Below are positions 53,981 to 62,415 of a DNA stretch of 64,000 nucleotides, in pieces. The notes under the pieces are model-generated. The model was not told the origin of the DNA and searched no databases. It saw only the letters and a program-made list of their open reading frames with translations. A program made the position numbers and the translations under genes. Numbering within the stretch: position 1 is the stretch's first letter; each line of letters opens with the position of its first letter. Origin of the DNA: Psychromonas sp. SA13A (GTDB taxonomy: Bacteria > Pseudomonadota > Gammaproteobacteria > Enterobacterales > Psychromonadaceae); the NCBI RefSeq assembly GCF_011378715.1, contig NZ_WTKU01000001.1, positions 1 to 64,000 of the forward strand, in the 5' to 3' direction.

Positions 53981-54964
53981 ATGGTTAAAGAAGTTCCCCT
54001 GCGTTTAGGTGAAAAGGTGATGCCTAAAGCGCCAAAAATTTTACTAAGTAATGGTGACTACTGTGTGCCCCAACACTACTTAACCTATCACCATACTCTG
54101 CAAAGTGTCGAAGCACTCATTTGTGATATTGAGTATGATCCGAGATATGTTGTGTTTGCAGCTCAGGAACTATCGGGTATTTATATACAAGTAGGCGTTG
54201 TAGGTCACGATAACTACCATAAAAAATCAACTCAAAAAGAAAGCCAGCTTAAGTTATTATTTGGTCGAAAATGGCGTGTAGAGCCAGAACTGCCTACCTC
54301 TGAAATTATTCAAAGTGTTTTTTTAGCGATAAAAAAATCACGCGAACATGAAGTGAGAGAGCTATTCAAATTAACACTTAACGATAGTACAACCACGCCT
54401 TTTAACACTCATATTGATCTTCCTTTAATGGCAGAGTTTTACGATAAAGATCAATGTATAAGTGAGCCTATAGCGACAACAAGTACAGAACAAAAAATCA
54501 ACCAAGTACTGAATAAAATAAATTATGACAATAGCCAACTGAGCTTGTTAGAAGCGCAACAACGACCTAATGGTTTATGGCTAGTCGATATAAAAGTTCA
54601 ACAAACGGAACGCAGCACTTTGCCAGAGATGGACAATGCGACACTTTATTTAATGGTAGATGAACTGTCTTTAAATGCATTGAGCCGCGCTTTAATGCAG
54701 GAGTTTATTCGCCTAAGTGATTTACATGTAGATAAACATTTTAGTTATCAAGGCTTTCATCGTTTTGACCCTGATATTGATATTGCAGATATTGCCGACT
54801 TGTCTCAACAAAGTCGTAAACATGAACTAGCAGCGCATTTTGCAAGCGAGTTTTCTAAGAGCAATAAAGAAATCGATTTAATGCGAATTCCTACTGTGAA
54901 AGAAGGTGTTTTAGCGCAAAAACATAAACAGATTATTGAACAGTTTAAATTACAAATGCAATAA
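53981..54964 (+). CDS. Cytosolic protein of unknown function
   Basis: 327 residues, not recognised. There is no signal peptide or membrane helix. The N-terminal part has HYLTYHHTLQSVEALICDIEYD and VVFAAQELSGIYIQVGVVGHDNY-like segments; the C-terminus is helical and rich in Lys/Gln (EGVLAQKHKQIIEQFKLQMQ). I cannot assign motifs with confidence. It follows the efflux genes by 105 bases and ends at a strong hairpin (54997-55029). Confidence 0.75.
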   Translation: MVKEVPLRLGEKVMPKAPKILLSNGDYCVPQHYLTYHHTLQSVEALICDIEYDPRYVVFAAQELSGIYIQVGVVGHDNYHKKSTQKESQLKLLFGRKWRVEPELPTSEIIQSVFLAIKKSREHEVRELFKLTLNDSTTTPFNTHIDLPLMAEFYDKDQCISEPIATTSTEQKINQVLNKINYDNSQLSLLEAQQRPNGLWLVDIKVQQTERSTLPEMDNATLYLMVDELSLNALSRALMQEFIRLSDLHVDKHFSYQGFHRFDPDIDIADIADLSQQSRKHELAAHFASEFSKSNKEIDLMRIPTVKEGVLAQKHKQIIEQFKLQMQ

Positions 54965-55360: not shown

Positions 55361-56404
55361 TTAGTTAAACATGTTTTTTAAGCCGCTATTAAAACTAGTG
55401 GTCATTTTAGTCGTAAGATCACCGAAGGTAGATTTCTCATATTTAACTTTAACGTAGTCGCCTAACTTAACTTGATCTGCATATTCGTCATCCACTAAAA
55501 TCCAAGCAAAATGATCACTAATAAGGTTGCTCGTTATCGTACCTTCAACAACTGCATATTCCTCGATAGCAACATCACCGGTTAATGGATTCGCTTTAAC
55601 TTCTAAGTTATAAAAGGTAATCGTTGATTCAGGTTTAAAGCCAAAATTCTTACCTGCTGATATTTTAAATAAACTTTTATCGCCATTTACTTTTCGCTCT
55701 AACACGTAGGCTTTAGGTGAAAAGAAGTTTTGGAATTTTGCTCTATTACTCTCAACACCGGCTTTAGCTGCTTTACGTATTAAAGCATTAGCAGATGCAT
55801 TACTGATAGGGCATCGACTATTACTAGTATCGGTTGAAAAGGAAGCTTTGTCTTCTGTTGTAATGGTCTTTGAATAAGCTAATCCTGGTAATTTATAGAG
55901 TTTTAAATTAGCAGCAACCGTCGCCGTGAAACGACAGTGCGCAGGTGTCACACTGGTTTTACCATCATCATTTGTGTACGACTTTCGCGCTGTAAAATCA
56001 TAAGAGAGAGAAGCGTTTGAAACATTACCCGTAATAGCATAGTTAGCAACATCAGGACCATTATATTGCGACTTACCCTTTGACTCTGCTAGGGCGAGTT
56101 CTTTTTTAAGCTTTTTTGCAATATTTCTATCTACTATTTCAACCCCTACCTCCGCAAGATGAGTTTCTAATGCAGTGGAAATAGCAGTGCCGGTATGGCT
56201 TGATTTACCTAATGGAGTATCTGTTGTATCTGCAGGAAAAATCACTATTTTTTGCTTCGCACCAGCAAGGGTTTCTTTGCTTGGTAAGATATCTGCTTTT
56301 TGCATTGAAACATCAGTATATTCGCGAATATTTTCTTTTGTTTGTATACAACCAGTAAGGCCCAACGTTGCAGATACTGCGACAACTAATAATTTTTTCT
56401 TCAT
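55361..56404 (-). CDS. CsgG/FlgT-like outer-membrane lipoprotein
   Basis: 347 residues with a type II signal peptide and lipobox (ATLGLTGCIQ). The first domain resembles the CsgG/TolB-type N-terminal fold: IVIFPADTTDTPLG, AISTALETHLAEVGVEIVDRNIAKKL and NYAITGNVSNASLSY. A later segment (SDHFAWILVDDEYADQVKLGDYVKVKY) resembles the C-terminal domain of flagellar H-ring protein FlgT. It has two Cys in the middle region. It is the last gene of a five-gene leftward cluster. By analogy it could form an outer-membrane ring or pore; this is inference from fold likeness only. Confidence 0.72.
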   Translation of the reverse strand: MKKKLLVVAVSATLGLTGCIQTKENIREYTDVSMQKADILPSKETLAGAKQKIVIFPADTTDTPLGKSSHTGTAISTALETHLAEVGVEIVDRNIAKKLKKELALAESKGKSQYNGPDVANYAITGNVSNASLSYDFTARKSYTNDDGKTSVTPAHCRFTATVAANLKLYKLPGLAYSKTITTEDKASFSTDTSNSRCPISNASANALIRKAAKAGVESNRAKFQNFFSPKAYVLERKVNGDKSLFKISAGKNFGFKPESTITFYNLEVKANPLTGDVAIEEYAVVEGTITSNLISDHFAWILVDDEYADQVKLGDYVKVKYEKSTFGDLTTKMTTSFNSGLKNMFN

Positions 56405-56485
56405 GTACTACTTCCTTTTAATATGCAAAGTTAAATATGCTGAAATGCGCTTATTTAATTAATTTGTACTCGTTATCAGTATCGT

Positions 56486-57484
56486 TTACTCATCAAATCC
56501 CAATAACTGATAAACATCGGAGCGGTTTTCAACCACGGTTAAGAATTTACTCACGGCACTTTCATAAGCTTGTTGGTAGGCCGTCACAGAAGAACCATTA
56601 AGCAGATATGATTTTTTGCTGTAAACCTTGCCGGAGTTGGATTTAACTAAGAAACTAAAGTTAATACGTGTGCTATAAACAGAAAAAGCCAAACTGTTCT
56701 TTGTTTTTCCTTGCACCTGAATAATGGCATCAGCTTTACTTTTACGGCTAGCAACTTGGAACCCATGTGTTTGTATCAGGTCATTTAGTTGTTCTGCAAT
56801 GGGGGATACATTACTCGTTGATTGAATATAAAAGTGGGTACTTGCAAGTAATTGCGCTTCGGCTAATGAATACTCCTGAAATAAACGCGTATAAGGTGTT
56901 AAATCAAATTCACTATCGGCAACTGCAATCAAATACAATAGCGGCTCAGCTTCAGCTACACTGGCTTGAACTTTGTTATAGGCGTAAAGCTGTTCAATCT
57001 TACTTTTACTACTTATATTATGCAGCCTAGTATCTATGTGATTGGTGATGGTTGTCAGCTTAGATTTTTTATCCTTAATAAACTCATTTCTCGAGATAGC
57101 AATTTCTACAAAATATTGTTGTTCTACCTTTTCAGCCTTTTTTTGCTCCACCTGCGTAAACTCAATATCTTTCACTTGAGTATTAATTTTTTGTGAAAAA
57201 AGCTGATCTACTTGCCCATTATGTAAAGACTGCTTGTGTAATGTATCGCTGTTAACACTGACCGAAAATTTACCGGCAATCTCTTTTAATGCATGTTGCT
57301 TGGCTTCTTCAAGCCCCTTGCCAACACCAACGCCATACATATATTGTTGATTATCTTGAGTAGGTGAAAGCACCCACTCAGGCACGTTTTCATTACCTGA
57401 ATTAGATGAACATGCACTTAAAAGTACAAGCCCTGTCATAGCAACAAATAAAGGCTTAAAATACTGCTTACATTTAATCATCAT
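56486..57484 (-). CDS. LPP20-type lipoprotein
   Basis: 332 residues with lipobox (LVLLSACSSNSG). The first half has the LPP20/FlgP-like pattern PEWVLSPTQDNQQYMYGVGVGKGLEEAKQHALKEIAGKFSVSV, here quoted in pieces: PEWVLSP, YGVGVGKGL and ALKEIAGKF. A helical middle and a second domain follow, ending LTVVENRSDVYQLLGFDE. Proteins of this family coat outer-membrane structures in flagellated vibrios. It starts 15 bases after the transglycosylase gene in the same operon. Function here is unknown. Confidence 0.78.
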   Translation of the reverse strand: MMIKCKQYFKPLFVAMTGLVLLSACSSNSGNENVPEWVLSPTQDNQQYMYGVGVGKGLEEAKQHALKEIAGKFSVSVNSDTLHKQSLHNGQVDQLFSQKINTQVKDIEFTQVEQKKAEKVEQQYFVEIAISRNEFIKDKKSKLTTITNHIDTRLHNISSKSKIEQLYAYNKVQASVAEAEPLLYLIAVADSEFDLTPYTRLFQEYSLAEAQLLASTHFYIQSTSNVSPIAEQLNDLIQTHGFQVASRKSKADAIIQVQGKTKNSLAFSVYSTRINFSFLVKSNSGKVYSKKSYLLNGSSVTAYQQAYESAVSKFLTVVENRSDVYQLLGFDE

Positions 57485-57499
57485 TTTTCCTATAGCAGA

Positions 57500-58825
57500 T
57501 TATATTGCAGATTTTGTTTCGTATAAGGCGATTCGTTTAGACACTTTTTTTAAGTAATGCTTAGTTTCATCGTAAGGCAGTTTATTCATTAAAGCGTTAT
57601 ACACTTGCTCAGGCGATAATGTGTTAATAACCCGTGCCGCTTTGTTAATATTTCTGGTGTTACCACTGTTATTAAAGACTTTTGCGACATTACCTGCACC
57701 GGTGTTGTAGGCTGCGATAGTGCAATACAAACGACTCTTTGGATCGGTTATCGACTTCAAATAACGTTTATCTAAAATACTCAAATAAGCACTGCCCGTT
57801 TCAACGTTAATACTAGGCACATACAACTCTTTAACTTGCATTGGTTTATCTATTTTTCGAATCATTTTATTCACGTCATGACCGGCAGTGCGTGGCACTA
57901 TTTGCATTAAACCATAAGCAGGAACCGCTGATTTAGCCTTCGGTTGAAAAGCAGATTCGGAATGCATAATAGCCATCACTAGCGCCACGGGAATATCGAA
58001 GCGTTGGCTCTCTTTTTCAGCAAATGGCTTGTATTTTTTGGCTCTTTTACTGAGGCTGTTAGCCGGTAATTTAGCGGTATATTTAAGAACTTTATAAGTA
58101 GGCGGTGTCACCTTTGTTTTTTCTCTCAGCGCTGCATATTGTGCTTCAACAGTTGCAATACGTTGTGCCTCTTCTTTTTCTAGAGTCTTTTTTTGTAACT
58201 CAACAGATTTTTCAATAATACTTTCAGGCACACTTGCTTGAGTTTCTTGTAGCTTATCTGCTTTTAGATCTGCTTCATTCTTATAAGCGAGCGTTTGCTT
58301 TTTGATCACTTCCTTGGCATTTTTTTCTTGTTCAGTATCGAATTTAATCTCATTTAACTGAATATTCTTGGCCTTAACGACTTTATCAAGAGCTTGTTTT
58401 ACTTCTGATTTATTTTCATCTTTAGCAAGATATGACGTTAATATTTTTTCACTCTCAGCTGCAGTAGTATCCGCAGGAACGAGTATTTCAACCACAGCCT
58501 GATTGTTATCGTAGTCAACAAGTTCTCTGGTTTTTAAGTCTTCAGAATAAACAACATTATTTATATCTTTTGCAGTAGTTTCACCCCATTGCATAATAAT
58601 TTGAGTTTGTTTGTAATCGAACCCGTTTAAATACTCCTTTCTCCAAGTGTCATATTCAGCTAAATACCCACTAACAAAAGAAATATACTCTTCGACTATT
58701 TTGTCATTGTCAGGGGATTCAAACTCATTCATTTCTGCATCAAATTCATCAAATACATTGTCTGAACTTGCCAGTGGGCTAAGTGCTAAAGAGATAACGA
58801 ATAGGCTAGTTATAAATTTTTTCAT
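57500..58825 (-). CDS. MltC-like lytic transglycosylase with coiled-coil insert
   Basis: 441 residues. A cleavable signal peptide (FVISLALSPLASS) replaces the lipobox of MltC. An N-terminal DUF3393-like region precedes a long Lys/Glu-rich coiled coil (roughly residues 150-240). The C-terminal SLT domain has catalytic Glu290 in MAIMHSESAF, then AYGLMQIVP, SAYLSIL and CTIAAYNTGAGNVAKVF. It cuts peptidoglycan glycan strands, presumably to admit an envelope structure built by neighbouring lipoproteins. It sits between two LPP20-type genes. Confidence 0.85.
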   Translation of the reverse strand: MKKFITSLFVISLALSPLASSDNVFDEFDAEMNEFESPDNDKIVEEYISFVSGYLAEYDTWRKEYLNGFDYKQTQIIMQWGETTAKDINNVVYSEDLKTRELVDYDNNQAVVEILVPADTTAAESEKILTSYLAKDENKSEVKQALDKVVKAKNIQLNEIKFDTEQEKNAKEVIKKQTLAYKNEADLKADKLQETQASVPESIIEKSVELQKKTLEKEEAQRIATVEAQYAALREKTKVTPPTYKVLKYTAKLPANSLSKRAKKYKPFAEKESQRFDIPVALVMAIMHSESAFQPKAKSAVPAYGLMQIVPRTAGHDVNKMIRKIDKPMQVKELYVPSINVETGSAYLSILDKRYLKSITDPKSRLYCTIAAYNTGAGNVAKVFNNSGNTRNINKAARVINTLSPEQVYNALMNKLPYDETKHYLKKVSKRIALYETKSAI

Positions 58826-58880
58826 ATGACCTCAGAAAAGCCACATCACTCAGAAAATATCAGTGATGTGGCTTCCTATA

Positions 58881-59480
58881 TTATTTGTTTTTTAATTTTG
58901 AAAGCACGTTTGCAAGTTCATCAGCGGTCTTTTTGTCATTGAACTTAGACCATAACTCGGCATCCTTTGCTTCTGCTTTTTGGATCACTTTAGAAAAGTT
59001 CATATCGAAAGTCGCCTTGTCCATACCTACTAACGTATACAAACCACCAGCGGGACTAGTACGTTTAGTAATGATTCTTGAGTTATTTAAAGTGGTGCTT
59101 GAGATACTTTTTGTGACATTTTCAAAGTATTCATCTACATTTTCACTAACACCTTCAGTAGTTGTATTAGTAGAAGACGTTGAAGCCGTTTTTAAAATAC
59201 TTTGTACATTAACTTCGAATTGACGACCTAGATTCACGCGTGCGTCATTGATGGAAATATCATTCATAATACTTGCCCCTGCTACATTTTTCTTAGCATA
59301 GCCTGTCGCACTAATTTCCAATCCTGTTGGTGTTACACCACACACCCATTGCGGCGCTTCTTCCTTTGGCGCGTCAGGGTAAAAACAAGCTAATGACTGC
59401 ACATCGTTAACACTTGAAGTGCTTTGGCAAGCAGTTAATACCGTTACTAACGAGAATGTGAGTGCTGTTTTTTTAAACAT
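58881..59480 (-). CDS. LPP20-type lipoprotein (short)
   Basis: 199 residues, lipobox LTACQSTSS. Mature segments APQWVCGVTPTGLEISATGYAKK and INDARVNLGRQFEVNV follow the LPP20 pattern, and YTLVGMDKATFDMNFSKVIQ closes the domain. Two cysteines beyond the lipidated one (SLACFYP, WVCGV) may form a disulfide. It is a paralogue-like partner of the lipoprotein at 56486, in the same operon. Confidence 0.78.
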   Translation of the reverse strand: MFKKTALTFSLVTVLTACQSTSSVNDVQSLACFYPDAPKEEAPQWVCGVTPTGLEISATGYAKKNVAGASIMNDISINDARVNLGRQFEVNVQSILKTASTSSTNTTTEGVSENVDEYFENVTKSISSTTLNNSRIITKRTSPAGGLYTLVGMDKATFDMNFSKVIQKAEAKDAELWSKFNDKKTADELANVLSKLKNK

Positions 59481-59510
59481 TGGAGATCCTTTTTTTAAAT
59501 AACGAAGTAA

Positions 59511-60275
59511 TTAATAATGATTGTTAAATAACGCACTCATCTCATAATTGCTTAATAGAGATTCCAGCATTATTTCGTTAGACAATTCAGTAATAGAATA
59601 AAAATTGGGTATTAATGGTGATGAAAATGTCACTGAGGAAAAATCAAACTCTTCAACTGAGTTCAACTCATGGTTAACGTCAATAATAGTTTGGCTATAA
59701 GGTGTAGGCGCATTGCTGTAGTTCACATGCCCTAACAATAAGTTATAGAACATTAAGTTACGGCTTAACTCATAACTTTCTGAGAAATATTCCAAACTAC
59801 CGACATTAGTTAGTATTGACTCCTGTGAAGGTAGGTATTGTTTAATATCCAGCGTATTAAGTTGCTTGTTGATATAAGCAACCGGTGCTAAAAAATCAGC
59901 TTTTTTACTGAATACGGTAAAACCATTCAAACGTTGGTTTTTAATAAAAGTAACCAATAAAAATTTTTCACTGTTGTAATAATAATATTGAAGATCATCA
60001 TCTAATTTAGAAGGTTTAATGACTTGAGGAGATCCTAGGATTTGCTCCGTATAACGCTCAGTAAGTCCAATCCGCAATTTGCTAATACGCTTATATTCTA
60101 TTTCGTTGGTAAACCTTGAAATCACTTCCTCATAAACACTAACAACGGCTTCTTTAGTATCATTCCACTGCCCAAGCGACAACATAATCAACACCACCGT
60201 AAAAGAGATATTTTTTATCTTTACTAACAAGGTAGAGTTATTATTTGCGGGAGTATCTGTATCGCTTTGTTGCAT
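59511..60275 (-). CDS. Single-pass membrane protein heading the lipoprotein cluster
   Basis: About 254 residues, using the ATG at 60275 with AGAGGTGA upstream; an earlier frame start at 60329 lacks a ribosome site. One transmembrane helix near the N-terminus (ISFTVVLIMLSLGQW) is followed by a soluble, presumably periplasmic domain with KLRIGLTERYTEQILGSPQ and YYYNSEKFLLVTFIKNQRL. The GLTERYTEQILGSPQ stretch resembles a small assembly-factor domain seen in BamE-like and related proteins. It may belong to a family I recall as ETEC_3214-type, unverified. It is the first gene of the cluster. Confidence 0.7.
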   Translation of the reverse strand: MQQSDTDTPANNNSTLLVKIKNISFTVVLIMLSLGQWNDTKEAVVSVYEEVISRFTNEIEYKRISKLRIGLTERYTEQILGSPQVIKPSKLDDDLQYYYYNSEKFLLVTFIKNQRLNGFTVFSKKADFLAPVAYINKQLNTLDIKQYLPSQESILTNVGSLEYFSESYELSRNLMFYNLLLGHVNYSNAPTPYSQTIIDVNHELNSVEEFDFSSVTFSSPLIPNFYSITELSNEIMLESLLSNYEMSALFNNHY

Positions 60276-60329
60276 CCATTCACCTCTATTTGCGTACAAA
60301 TAGTTTATTTCCAATAAAAAAAATACCAC

Positions 60330-60645
60330 CTAAGTGGTAACATCGTGGAAATACTAAGGTTTTTTTAATAAAAAAGCGAAGAAAAAATTGAACTTTTATA
60401 GATTTTAACAATACATTTAAGAACAGAGATCACACTTTATAGGTTATTACATTTAAAAAGGCTTTATTAATATTATTTATTGACTTTATTTAATTAAAAA
60501 ACACGTGAGTTCAGTGTTGTATCATTTATTTAAATGGATAAAACTATTGTTATCAACGCATAACGTACTATATTTAATATTAATAAAAATGCCTTCTAGT
60601 TTAGTTAATATTAAAATATTCCATTATAAATAGAGAGAATACTCA
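60330..60645. other. Divergent promoter region between lipoprotein cluster and diguanylate cyclase gene
   Basis: 316 AT-rich bases with long A and T runs. Promoters of both units must lie here, but I cannot place them with confidence. There is no ORF, RNA gene or clear operator palindrome. Confidence 0.5.
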
Positions 60646-62415
60646 GTGAAGTCTATTCCCCTGCGTTGGTTAATTATTACCCCCTTCGTACTACTTGCAC
60701 TTATTGCAGGTGTGCTGATGTACTTTGTATCCACCGTCACCATTTCCAATATAGCTAATAATGTAGGCGAGCAATATATCAAGGAGGTGGAAAATCGAAT
60801 TGATGATAGGGTGGGAGATTTCATTGCGCCACTCAGCGACATTTTAGAAATTAACCGTGATGCCTTTACTAACAAACCTGAATTACTGAATAACTTAACC
60901 CCCATCGCCACCCGCTTTTACGAGCAAGCTACCCCTTTTGAACATATGACGTTTATTTCCGTTGCCACAGCAGACGGTCGTTACCTCGCATCTGCACGCG
61001 ATCCCATTGGTAAAATACAACACAACATTGCAGCAAATTTTATTAACAAACCTTTCACCATGGAAGGATTTAACTATCACCCTAAAAAAAGTATCGGCGC
61101 CAAGATAGAAACCGATCCCGCTTTTAGTTACGACCCAAGGGGAAGACCCTTTTACCTCGATGCATTAAAAGCCCAAACAATAACCTGGAGTGATATTCAT
61201 CCCTATTATGGTCGTCCAACATTGGGGATCGGCTTATCGGTTCCTATTTATGATGTAAATGGCAAAGTATTAGGTGTCACGGCAACCAGTGTTGCGTTGA
61301 TTGAATTAGATGATTATTTAGAATCGTTAGAGCTAGTGGATAACGCTTACATTTTTTTAGCTGAAGAAAATGGTGCATTGATTGCCACTTCAAGCAAAGA
61401 TGCTTTGTACAATATTACGGAAGGAACCTACACTAGGCTAAATCTCAACAACCACCCAGATCCCTTGTTTAAAATGGCCAGCCAGCACTTTAAAAAAGGC
61501 TCATATCACCTTAATCTTGATGGAGAAGCCTACTTATATCGCGTCAGTAACATCCAACTCAAATATGGAAAAACTTGGCTGATTGGTGTGCTTATTCCTT
61601 CTTCTTACCATGAAGGAATATTAACTGAATACACACAAACCACTATTTTCATTACACTCTCTCTATTTGCTTGTATTGCAATCATTGGCTCCGCGATTGC
61701 TTGGTATATAGGCAAACCGATACAACAACTTAATAAAGCCGCTAATGATAAAAAAGTTGAAAGTATTCTATTACTCCCACAACCCATGAGTAGGATCCGC
61801 GAAATTTGTTCGCTCAATCAAGGTCTACATGCAATGGCCGAAAACCTTTTAGATATATTGCAACACCTAGAACAAAAAGTATCAGAGCGAACGTCTTATT
61901 TACAGGATGAAAATGAGAATTTACTTGAGAGCTCGCTCACCGACGAGTTAACAACACTTTATAACCGTCGAGGCTTTAACCTCGTATTCGAAAAAGCATT
62001 TAAATCAGCACAAAACAAAGCACACTCACTTACCTTTGTACTGGGTGATATTGACTACTTTAAACGTATCAATGACGATTACGGACATACTTTAGGTGAC
62101 TGCGCACTAGTCGCCGTAGCCGCTAACCTCAAAAAACATACACGTGCTGCAAAAGATATAGTAGCGCGTTATGGAGGCGAAGAATTTGCCTTGGTATTTC
62201 TGAATATGGAAACGGAACAGGTCCTTGAAAGACTTAATAATATTCAACAGGAATTTTCTACTATCCCCGTCTTTGAAAATCAGCACATAACCATGAGCTT
62301 TGGCTTAGCTGACCTCAAGGAACATCCCAATGCTTCAGCTGAGGCCTTGATAGAAATAGCAGATAAGAGACTTTATAAAGCAAAAAATAGCGGTAGAAAT
62401 AAGATTGTTAGTTAG
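60646..62415 (+). CDS. Cache-domain diguanylate cyclase (GGDEF family)
   Basis: 589 residues. A membrane helix at about 10-30, a periplasmic dCache sensor domain (FVSVATADGRYLASARDP-like pieces, DPRGRPFYLDALKA, GIGLSVPIYDVNGKVLG) and a second helix near 345 are followed by a HAMP-like linker, a coiled coil and a GGDEF domain. The signature is RYGGEEF at 508-514, so it should make c-di-GMP. The inhibitory RxxD motif is not in place (AAKD instead), suggesting no product inhibition at the usual site. GTG start with AGAGAGA upstream. It is divergent from the lipoprotein cluster. Confidence 0.9.
   Translation: MKSIPLRWLIITPFVLLALIAGVLMYFVSTVTISNIANNVGEQYIKEVENRIDDRVGDFIAPLSDILEINRDAFTNKPELLNNLTPIATRFYEQATPFEHMTFISVATADGRYLASARDPIGKIQHNIAANFINKPFTMEGFNYHPKKSIGAKIETDPAFSYDPRGRPFYLDALKAQTITWSDIHPYYGRPTLGIGLSVPIYDVNGKVLGVTATSVALIELDDYLESLELVDNAYIFLAEENGALIATSSKDALYNITEGTYTRLNLNNHPDPLFKMASQHFKKGSYHLNLDGEAYLYRVSNIQLKYGKTWLIGVLIPSSYHEGILTEYTQTTIFITLSLFACIAIIGSAIAWYIGKPIQQLNKAANDKKVESILLLPQPMSRIREICSLNQGLHAMAENLLDILQHLEQKVSERTSYLQDENENLLESSLTDELTTLYNRRGFNLVFEKAFKSAQNKAHSLTFVLGDIDYFKRINDDYGHTLGDCALVAVAANLKKHTRAAKDIVARYGGEEFALVFLNMETEQVLERLNNIQQEFSTIPVFENQHITMSFGLADLKEHPNASAEALIEIADKRLYKAKNSGRNKIVS

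Follow-up and report, generated by a model that had tools for sequence, protein, structure and literature searches.

Lipoproteins with the LPP20, FlgT and LpoB folds turn up in many envelope contexts, where some build rings, some act as adhesins and others activate enzymes; most have been given no function so far. LpoB is an outer-membrane activator of a wall enzyme. The N-terminal domain of the flagellar protein FlgT shares the SHS2 fold with LPP20 proteins, and an insert in LPP20 proteins has been reported to correlate with ring formation (PMC12222027). In Helicobacter pylori, two wall hydrolases, MltD and AmiA, came down with HP0018 in co-precipitation, and HP1457 has been termed an LpoB homologue (PMC11394524). 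In Escherichia coli, the ETEC virulence regulator CfaD activates the ETEC_3214 gene directly, and no role has so far been assigned to that gene (PMC5554520).

In this study, a cluster of five genes that brings such lipoproteins together with a lytic transglycosylase and an ETEC_3214-domain protein was analysed in a 64-kb window, which is the whole stretch of DNA under study. What was established here by computation is the make-up of the gene set, how it is conserved, which domains and folds its products have and where their signal sequences predict them to be located. The five genes are probably a real cell-envelope system that has gone undescribed, and we place the probability that they specify one envelope complex, which positions and controls a dedicated peptidoglycan-cutting enzyme, at about one half.

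The five open reading frames lie back to back on the minus strand between positions 55361 and 60275 (Table 1), consecutive and on one strand as originally predicted, and are transcribed in the order E, S, LT, Lg and CSG. The gaps had been given as about 15–235 bases; they are 30 (E–S), 55 (S–LT), 15 (LT–Lg) and 81 bases (Lg–CSG). The open frame of E extends further upstream to a GTG at 60329, and its start is most likely the ATG at 60275, because this codon, M19 in the numbering of the extended frame, lines up with the conserved start. Candidate promoters of sigma-70 type, including the one upstream of E, occurred in the region at chance level. No Rfam match was found in the 64-kb window or in the operon leader.

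Table 1. Features of the five-gene locus, with positions in the window
Feature	Description	Position	Strand	Basis
E	ETEC_3214-domain inner-membrane protein, 254 aa from ATG	59511..60275	−	NF043066 match and AF2 model
S	Short LPP20 lipoprotein, 199 aa	58881..59480	−	PF02169 near cut-off and family profile to Lpp20
LT	MltC-like lytic transglycosylase	57500..58825	−	PF01464 and MltC structure matches
Lg	Long LPP20 lipoprotein, 332 aa	56486..57484	−	PF02169 above cut-off and family profile to HP1454
CSG	FlgT_M/CsgG-fold domain and FlgT_C-like barrel, lipoprotein, 347 aa	55361..56404	−	AF2 model, Foldseek
Candidate promoter	Sigma-70 type, TTCACT-16-TATAAT, upstream of E	60623..60650	−	Consensus match alone

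LT comprises a Sec signal, an N-terminal MltC-like region, a charged linker and an SLT domain (PF01464, 5e-27), and it matched MltC structures at 5e-38. It shares with MltC the SLT domain and an intact active-site region, with E290 and S291 invariant; the Mltc_N domain (PF11873), for which the window protein gave no match, was detected in 7 of 22 relatives. It differs from MltC in the inserted linker, in its linkage to LPP20 partners and in its score against the NCBIfam MltC equivalog (174 bits), which is far below the cut-off of 375. A lipobox is likewise lacking, in the window protein as in 109 of 114 LT-cluster sequences. Because the signal peptide has no lipobox, LT is predicted to be soluble in the periplasm, unlike MltC. 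The enzyme type that had been proposed, an MltC-like lytic transglycosylase, stands. A scan of viral contigs and a phage search with LT alone returned no relative beyond general SLT-domain matches.

Two LPP20-type lipoproteins had been predicted, and both were recovered. Lg scored 38.3 bits against PF02169, above the cut-off of 25.9, and S fell just below it with 25.5 bits, while an S homologue (locus L017) reached 42.9 bits. The S family profile matched the structure of H. pylori Lpp20 (HP1456; 5ok8) at 2.3e-11, and the Lg family profile matched that of HP1454 (4kzs) at 9.6e-21. The signal sequences carry the lipoboxes LTAC in S, LSAC in Lg and LTGC in CSG, followed at position +2 by Gln, Ser and Ile, respectively, and the outer membrane is therefore the predicted location of all three lipoproteins.

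No significant Pfam or NCBIfam match was obtained for CSG, including FlgT, CsgG and LpoB (PF13036), and Pseudoalteromonas equivalents match Pfam CsgG. Profile alignment with E. coli CsgG matched the lipoprotein signal alone, and alignment with the FlgT of the same genome gave a weak C-terminal match only; kinship therefore rests on the predicted fold. With the AF2 model (pLDDT 83.7), Foldseek retrieved FlgT (3w1e, 3.1e-13), a chain of the LPHT ring (8z5n, 2.1e-13) and CsgG (4uv2, 2.1e-5), in agreement with the CsgG/FlgT-like lipoprotein of the original prediction. The FlgT match covers model residues 47–323 (VIA Z 9.6, rmsd 9.5 over 237 residues), and the mature part starts with the middle-type domain, the N-terminal SHS2/LPP20 domain of FlgT being absent. 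The cysteine pair C157/C198 is invariant.

E had been described as a single-pass inner-membrane protein, and the analysis agreed: it matched the NCBIfam ETEC_3214 domain (NF043066) with 108 bits against a curated cut-off of 35, and its AF2 model (pLDDT 86.5) has a single N-terminal transmembrane helix at residues 31–51. The periplasmic domain is BamE/BLIP-like, with fold matches to DUF4309 YjgB and BamE (for BamE, Z 5.8, rmsd 2.5 over 64 residues); against the BamE family PF04355, E scored 16.6 bits (cut-off 23.2).

Conservation was assessed by a collection scan queried with LT, the ETEC_3214 alignment being too divergent for such a scan. Among 95 non-redundant loci of the LT subfamily, S was found near LT in 87, E in 55, Lg in 42 and CSG in 35, and all five genes occurred together in 33. 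LT and S were adjacent 88 times, always on the same strand, with a median gap of 44 bases. At least three five-gene orders were observed, the main ones being Lg-CSG-S-LT-E, E-Lg-CSG-S-LT and E-S-LT-Lg-CSG. The full set is present in Psychromonas, Vibrio, Photobacterium, Shewanella, Enterovibrio and Ferrimonas, with an equivalent set in Pseudoalteromonas. An Aquificaceae bin contained the S-LT pair by itself; S, a small LPP20 gene, LT and Lg were found in another bin, which is filed under Fusobacteriales. As a control, none of the 17 MltC-type loci (L173–L189) had an LPP20 or CSG gene closer than 1.5 kb, whereas module partners stood beside LT in six of six full-length LT loci.

The grouping of the five genes is not due to chance. 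Every one of the families can also be found on its own in some genomes, as a fortuitous neighbourhood of unrelated envelope genes would have it, but this reading is refuted to the point of being negligible by conservation that persists despite reshuffling, and by the canonical MltC loci without partners. Since the set stays together in shuffled orders in many marine bacteria, it is probably a real but undescribed envelope system. No description of this five-gene module was found in the literature, and no characterised system was found to match the whole cluster; the undescribed envelope gene set that had been proposed is well supported, and homologues scattered without co-localisation are not what the neighbourhood analysis found. 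Distance correlations among the five proteins (0.76–0.94) ignore species history and so are not evidence of interaction. A neighbouring diguanylate cyclase was considered as a regulator and dropped because it is not a conserved neighbour of the module: GGDEF or EAL motifs flank only 5 of 103 loci, and some of these are near-identical.

From this conservation and these assignments we infer physical interaction, control of LT and a biological purpose. LT would pass into the periplasm and there, as a soluble transglycosylase of MltC type, cut glycan strands, and S, which almost always sits beside LT, may be its outer-membrane partner. Lg and CSG, with their LPP20 and FlgT/CsgG/LpoB folds, would form a scaffold that extends from the outer membrane into the wall and either restricts the cutting or switches it on, and E would be the inner-membrane anchor that offers its BamE-like periplasmic domain for docking. 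The purpose may be local wall remodelling for envelope integrity, or room for another structure. The reshuffled co-localisation, the intact active-site region of LT and, in Pseudoalteromonas, the LpoB gene beside the S-LT pair support controlled wall cutting, and the data on the Helicobacter relatives HP0018 and HP1457 fit it. Against it, co-localisation fits enzyme regulation as well as structure building; CSG has no Pfam LpoB match, and the best folds of its model are the ring protein FlgT and the pore CsgG. LT lies without S or E nearby in some Psychromonas species (L076, L077, L079 and L080) and can therefore work without the set, and E is present in E. coli and others without the other four genes.

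The original prediction of an exporter or trans-envelope structure was not supported, and it is retained as a tentative alternative. Here, CSG would be an outer-membrane ring or pore lined by the LPP20 proteins, LT would open the wall and E would anchor the assembly. CsgG and PelC are oligomeric outer-membrane lipoproteins that share the core fold, dedicated transglycosylases go with many envelope machines, and the CSG model resembles FlgT_M and FlgT_C, including the LPHT ring chain; these points count for a ring or exporter. However, no ATPase, secretin, cargo or further conserved gene recurs beside the five genes; the absence of a visible cargo gene had already been noted for this locus. The ring-correlated LPP20 insert was not seen in the alignments of S with Lpp20 and of Lg with HP1454, LT is not a lipoprotein, and FlgT, to which CSG comes closest, is a component of a ring and is not known to form a pore. 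The region of the second CsgG hairpin is polar by eye in CSG, and the hydrophobicity alternation profile for membrane hairpins does not decide. A peptidoglycan-remodelling complex needs fewer assumptions. Should the module nevertheless build a non-flagellar outer-membrane ring or conduit, which is possible but doubtful, it would give marine Gammaproteobacteria a trans-envelope structure of a kind not seen before, put together from the fold types of the Vibrio H ring and of the LPP20 proteins in Helicobacter and equipped with a wall-cutting enzyme and an inner-membrane anchor of its own.

It is unlikely that the set serves as a flagellar accessory which, like the LPP20 and FlgT proteins of Helicobacter, Campylobacter and Vibrio, stabilises the wall or outer membrane surrounding a polar flagellum. 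The fold kinship of CSG to FlgT, an S paralogue beside fliE in the same genome and the binding of H. pylori Lpp20 and HP1454 to FlgP and FapH (PMC11756786) speak for this role. Yet the genome's own FlgT, FlgO-like and FlgP-like genes lie beside flagellar genes on another contig, no flagellar gene adjoined the module in the loci inspected, and distribution is patchy, with E in 28 of 395 genomes of the order. Such accessory-like patchiness, a caspase-domain gene in one module variant, and the CfaD activation of ETEC_3214 are compatible with a phage-defence, stress-response or adhesion cassette, in which the lipoproteins would detect damage to the envelope or serve as adhesins in the manner of Campylobacter jejuni Cj0091, which belongs to a lipoprotein operon and contributes to adherence (PMC3100323). 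This is more improbable still: PADLOC matched none of the five proteins, the surroundings of the set show no recurring genes of mobile elements or defence, and its most constant member is a wall-cutting enzyme.

By linking such lipoproteins to one wall-cutting enzyme, the module offers a direct route to an LPP20 role outside flagella and is conserved widely enough for testing in several genera. It also supplies a likely functional context for ETEC_3214, which 231 of 5,426 complete E. coli genomes carry as an orphan gene.

The best reading of the complex is one related by fold to flagellar FlgT, to Helicobacter Lpp20/HP1454 and to LpoB. CSG aligns to the middle and C-terminal domains of FlgT from the Vibrio H ring; given the LPP20-type SHS2 fold of the FlgT N-terminal domain, the fold types that FlgT combines are divided among several proteins in this module. 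Unlike FlgT, CSG is a lipoprotein; it lacks the N-terminal domain, gives no Pfam match to FlgT and is encoded at a distance from flagellar genes (module on contig C1, the genome's own FlgT_C match on C50). With CsgG, CSG has the core lipoprotein fold in common, but in the window it lacks a Pfam CsgG match and adds a FlgT_C-like barrel, and none of the curli partners csgA, csgB, csgE and csgF was found near the cluster, either in the window or in relatives; for curli genes, this agrees with what had been claimed. The trio of LpoB, LPP20 and TPR genes (contig C10 in this genome; in Pseudoalteromonas, the S-LT pair has as neighbours a long LPP20 gene and a true LpoB gene, which matches PF13036 with 135 bits) has homologous long LPP20 proteins and an LpoB-type lipoprotein with a weak profile match to CSG, but it includes LpoB and a TPR protein and in this genome has no adjoining transglycosylase. 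The H. pylori hp1454–hp1457 and Campylobacter cj0089–cj0091 operons likewise unite homologues of S (Lpp20) and Lg (HP1454) in one cluster, and HP1457, termed an LpoB homologue, is comparable to CSG; the available parts of these reports mention no transglycosylase or ETEC_3214 protein, whereas the present module holds both.

The module, as we call the five genes together, occupies five consecutive open frames on the minus strand, and the intergenic gaps in the order E, S, LT, Lg and CSG are 30, 55, 15 and 81 bases. In the leader, a hairpin that resembles a terminator and has a tail of eight Ts (window 60324-60339) lies between the ATG of E and a promoter-like site; an Rfam search of the leader gave no match. 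Psychromonas arctica was the nearest named genome in the scan from LT, with a 97% identical transglycosylase.

Genes of the module and its flanks in the window
Feature	Position	Strand or orientation	Placement
E (ETEC_3214-domain inner-membrane protein)	59511-60275	minus	first in transcription order
S (short LPP20 lipoprotein)	58881-59480	minus	second in transcription order
LT (MltC-like lytic transglycosylase)	57500-58825	minus	third in transcription order
Lg (long LPP20 lipoprotein)	56486-57484	minus	fourth in transcription order
CSG (FlgT/CsgG-fold lipoprotein)	55361-56404	minus	fifth in transcription order
Diguanylate cyclase gene	60646-62415	divergent	upstream of module
Gene without assigned family	53981-54964	convergent	downstream of module

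E scores 108 bits against the NCBIfam ETEC_3214 domain model (cut-off 35) and has a single N-terminal membrane helix; the fold predicted for it is similar to BamE/BLIP-like and DUF4309 proteins. Lg is a clear LPP20 lipoprotein, whose family profile matched H. pylori HP1454; the Pfam LPP20 match of S is borderline, and the profile of the S family matched H. pylori Lpp20. LT combines an SLT domain with an MltC-like N-terminal region and has no lipobox. It was the best MltC-like match in its own genome, where no protein exceeded the MltC equivalog cut-off in a whole-genome search. Pfam and NCBIfam searches gave no significant match for CSG; its structural model (mean pLDDT 83.7) matched the middle and C-terminal domains of FlgT best in Foldseek, followed by CsgG, PelC and similar folds. 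In E. coli, the residue after the lipidated cysteine (+2) governs outer-membrane sorting. Outer-membrane sorting is thus expected for S, Lg and CSG, in which this residue is Gln, Ser and Ile, respectively.

E was present in 28 of 395 genomes of the order, and LT lay near it in 23 of the 27 fetched E loci (L048-L074), with a varying order of the other parts. A separate scan from LT found at least 558 relatives, of which the best 80 were mapped; these were picked by similarity to LT, and heavily sequenced genera are over-represented. Both sets, with near-identical copies removed, comprised 95 LT loci with S at 87, E at 55, Lg at 42, CSG at 35 and all five at 33. S and LT were adjacent in 88 raw loci, on the same strand every time. 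The five-gene set was found in at least three gene orders; this variety argues for selection on the grouping rather than for inheritance of gene order alone. The control, 17 canonical MltC-type loci from the same search, had no such neighbours within 1.5 kb. At four loci of other Psychromonas species (L076, L077, L079 and L080), an LT from the same subfamily is encoded with none of the partners S, Lg, CSG and E close by.

Other gene settings also retained the S-LT pair. In V. harveyi and others (L098, L096 and L097 among them), the operon of the pair also encodes a long LPP20 protein, together with five further products that gave no significant Pfam match where tested. One of these five, v11, appeared FlgT_C-like by eye, but hhalign gave no support for a link to CSG. 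In Pseudoalteromonas, the genes divergent from S and LT encode a true LpoB, a long LPP20 protein and a TPR protein. A third variant (L063 1611-9165, also L065 and L071) adds a caspase-domain protein (PF00656, 1.6e-12 in L063); its long LPP20 protein matches DUF4384 weakly and is followed by LT, S and E. The pair stands alone in an Aquificaceae bin, a bin filed as Fusobacteriales holds S, a small LPP20 gene, LT and Lg, and a CSG-like gene adjoins LT at L166, a locus from a different class. On the basis of these variants, the constant core is S with LT, and the remaining parts come from a repertoire of LPP20, FlgT/CsgG and LpoB folds.

Members of these families also occur outside the module. A lone S paralogue in the window's own genome (L019 7790-8383, contig C3) adjoins fliE-fliF-fliG, and a link between the family and flagella is possible. 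An orphan ETEC_3214 gene lies in E. coli H10407 (L015 15593-16330), on a genomic island without other module genes, and is found at 99% identity or more in 231 of 5,426 complete E. coli genomes. CfaD activates ETEC_3214 in enterotoxigenic E. coli, and its function was reported as unknown (PMC5554520). Searches of the open literature that paired LPP20 with CsgG, transglycosylase or FlgT returned no description of the set; the gene set is therefore undescribed within that open literature only.

The original prediction proposed a trans-envelope structure or exporter, and the exporter was not borne out, as no consistent cargo, ATPase, secretin or pilin gene was added at the mapped loci. FlgT forms a ring and is not known to act as a pore. 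According to a structural paper, members of the LPP20/SHS2 family that form rings have an insert separating the helix from the second strand (PMC12222027); S aligned to Lpp20 and Lg aligned to HP1454 have no large insert at this place. A ring of CSG remains the main rival because CSG could form one as FlgT does.

The constant part consists of a peptidoglycan-cutting enzyme and a lipoprotein predicted on the inner face of the outer membrane, and LpoB and FlgT folds occur among the added parts. LpoB reaches through the wall and activates an enzyme. We favour a complex that would position LT and control it from the outer membrane, E being its putative inner-membrane anchor; its control, contacts and purpose we infer from the S-LT core, the LpoB and FlgT folds, and contacts reported in Helicobacter. 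One study reports contacts of the relative HP0018 with the wall hydrolases MltD and AmiA (PMC11394524), and another reports contacts of HP1454 and HP1456 with the flagellar disk proteins FlgP and FapH (PMC11756786). The window's genome also holds, on contig C10 (L018 3798-6932), a trio of an LpoB-type lipoprotein, a TPR-like protein and a long LPP20 lipoprotein, of the same kind as that beside S-LT in Pseudoalteromonas.
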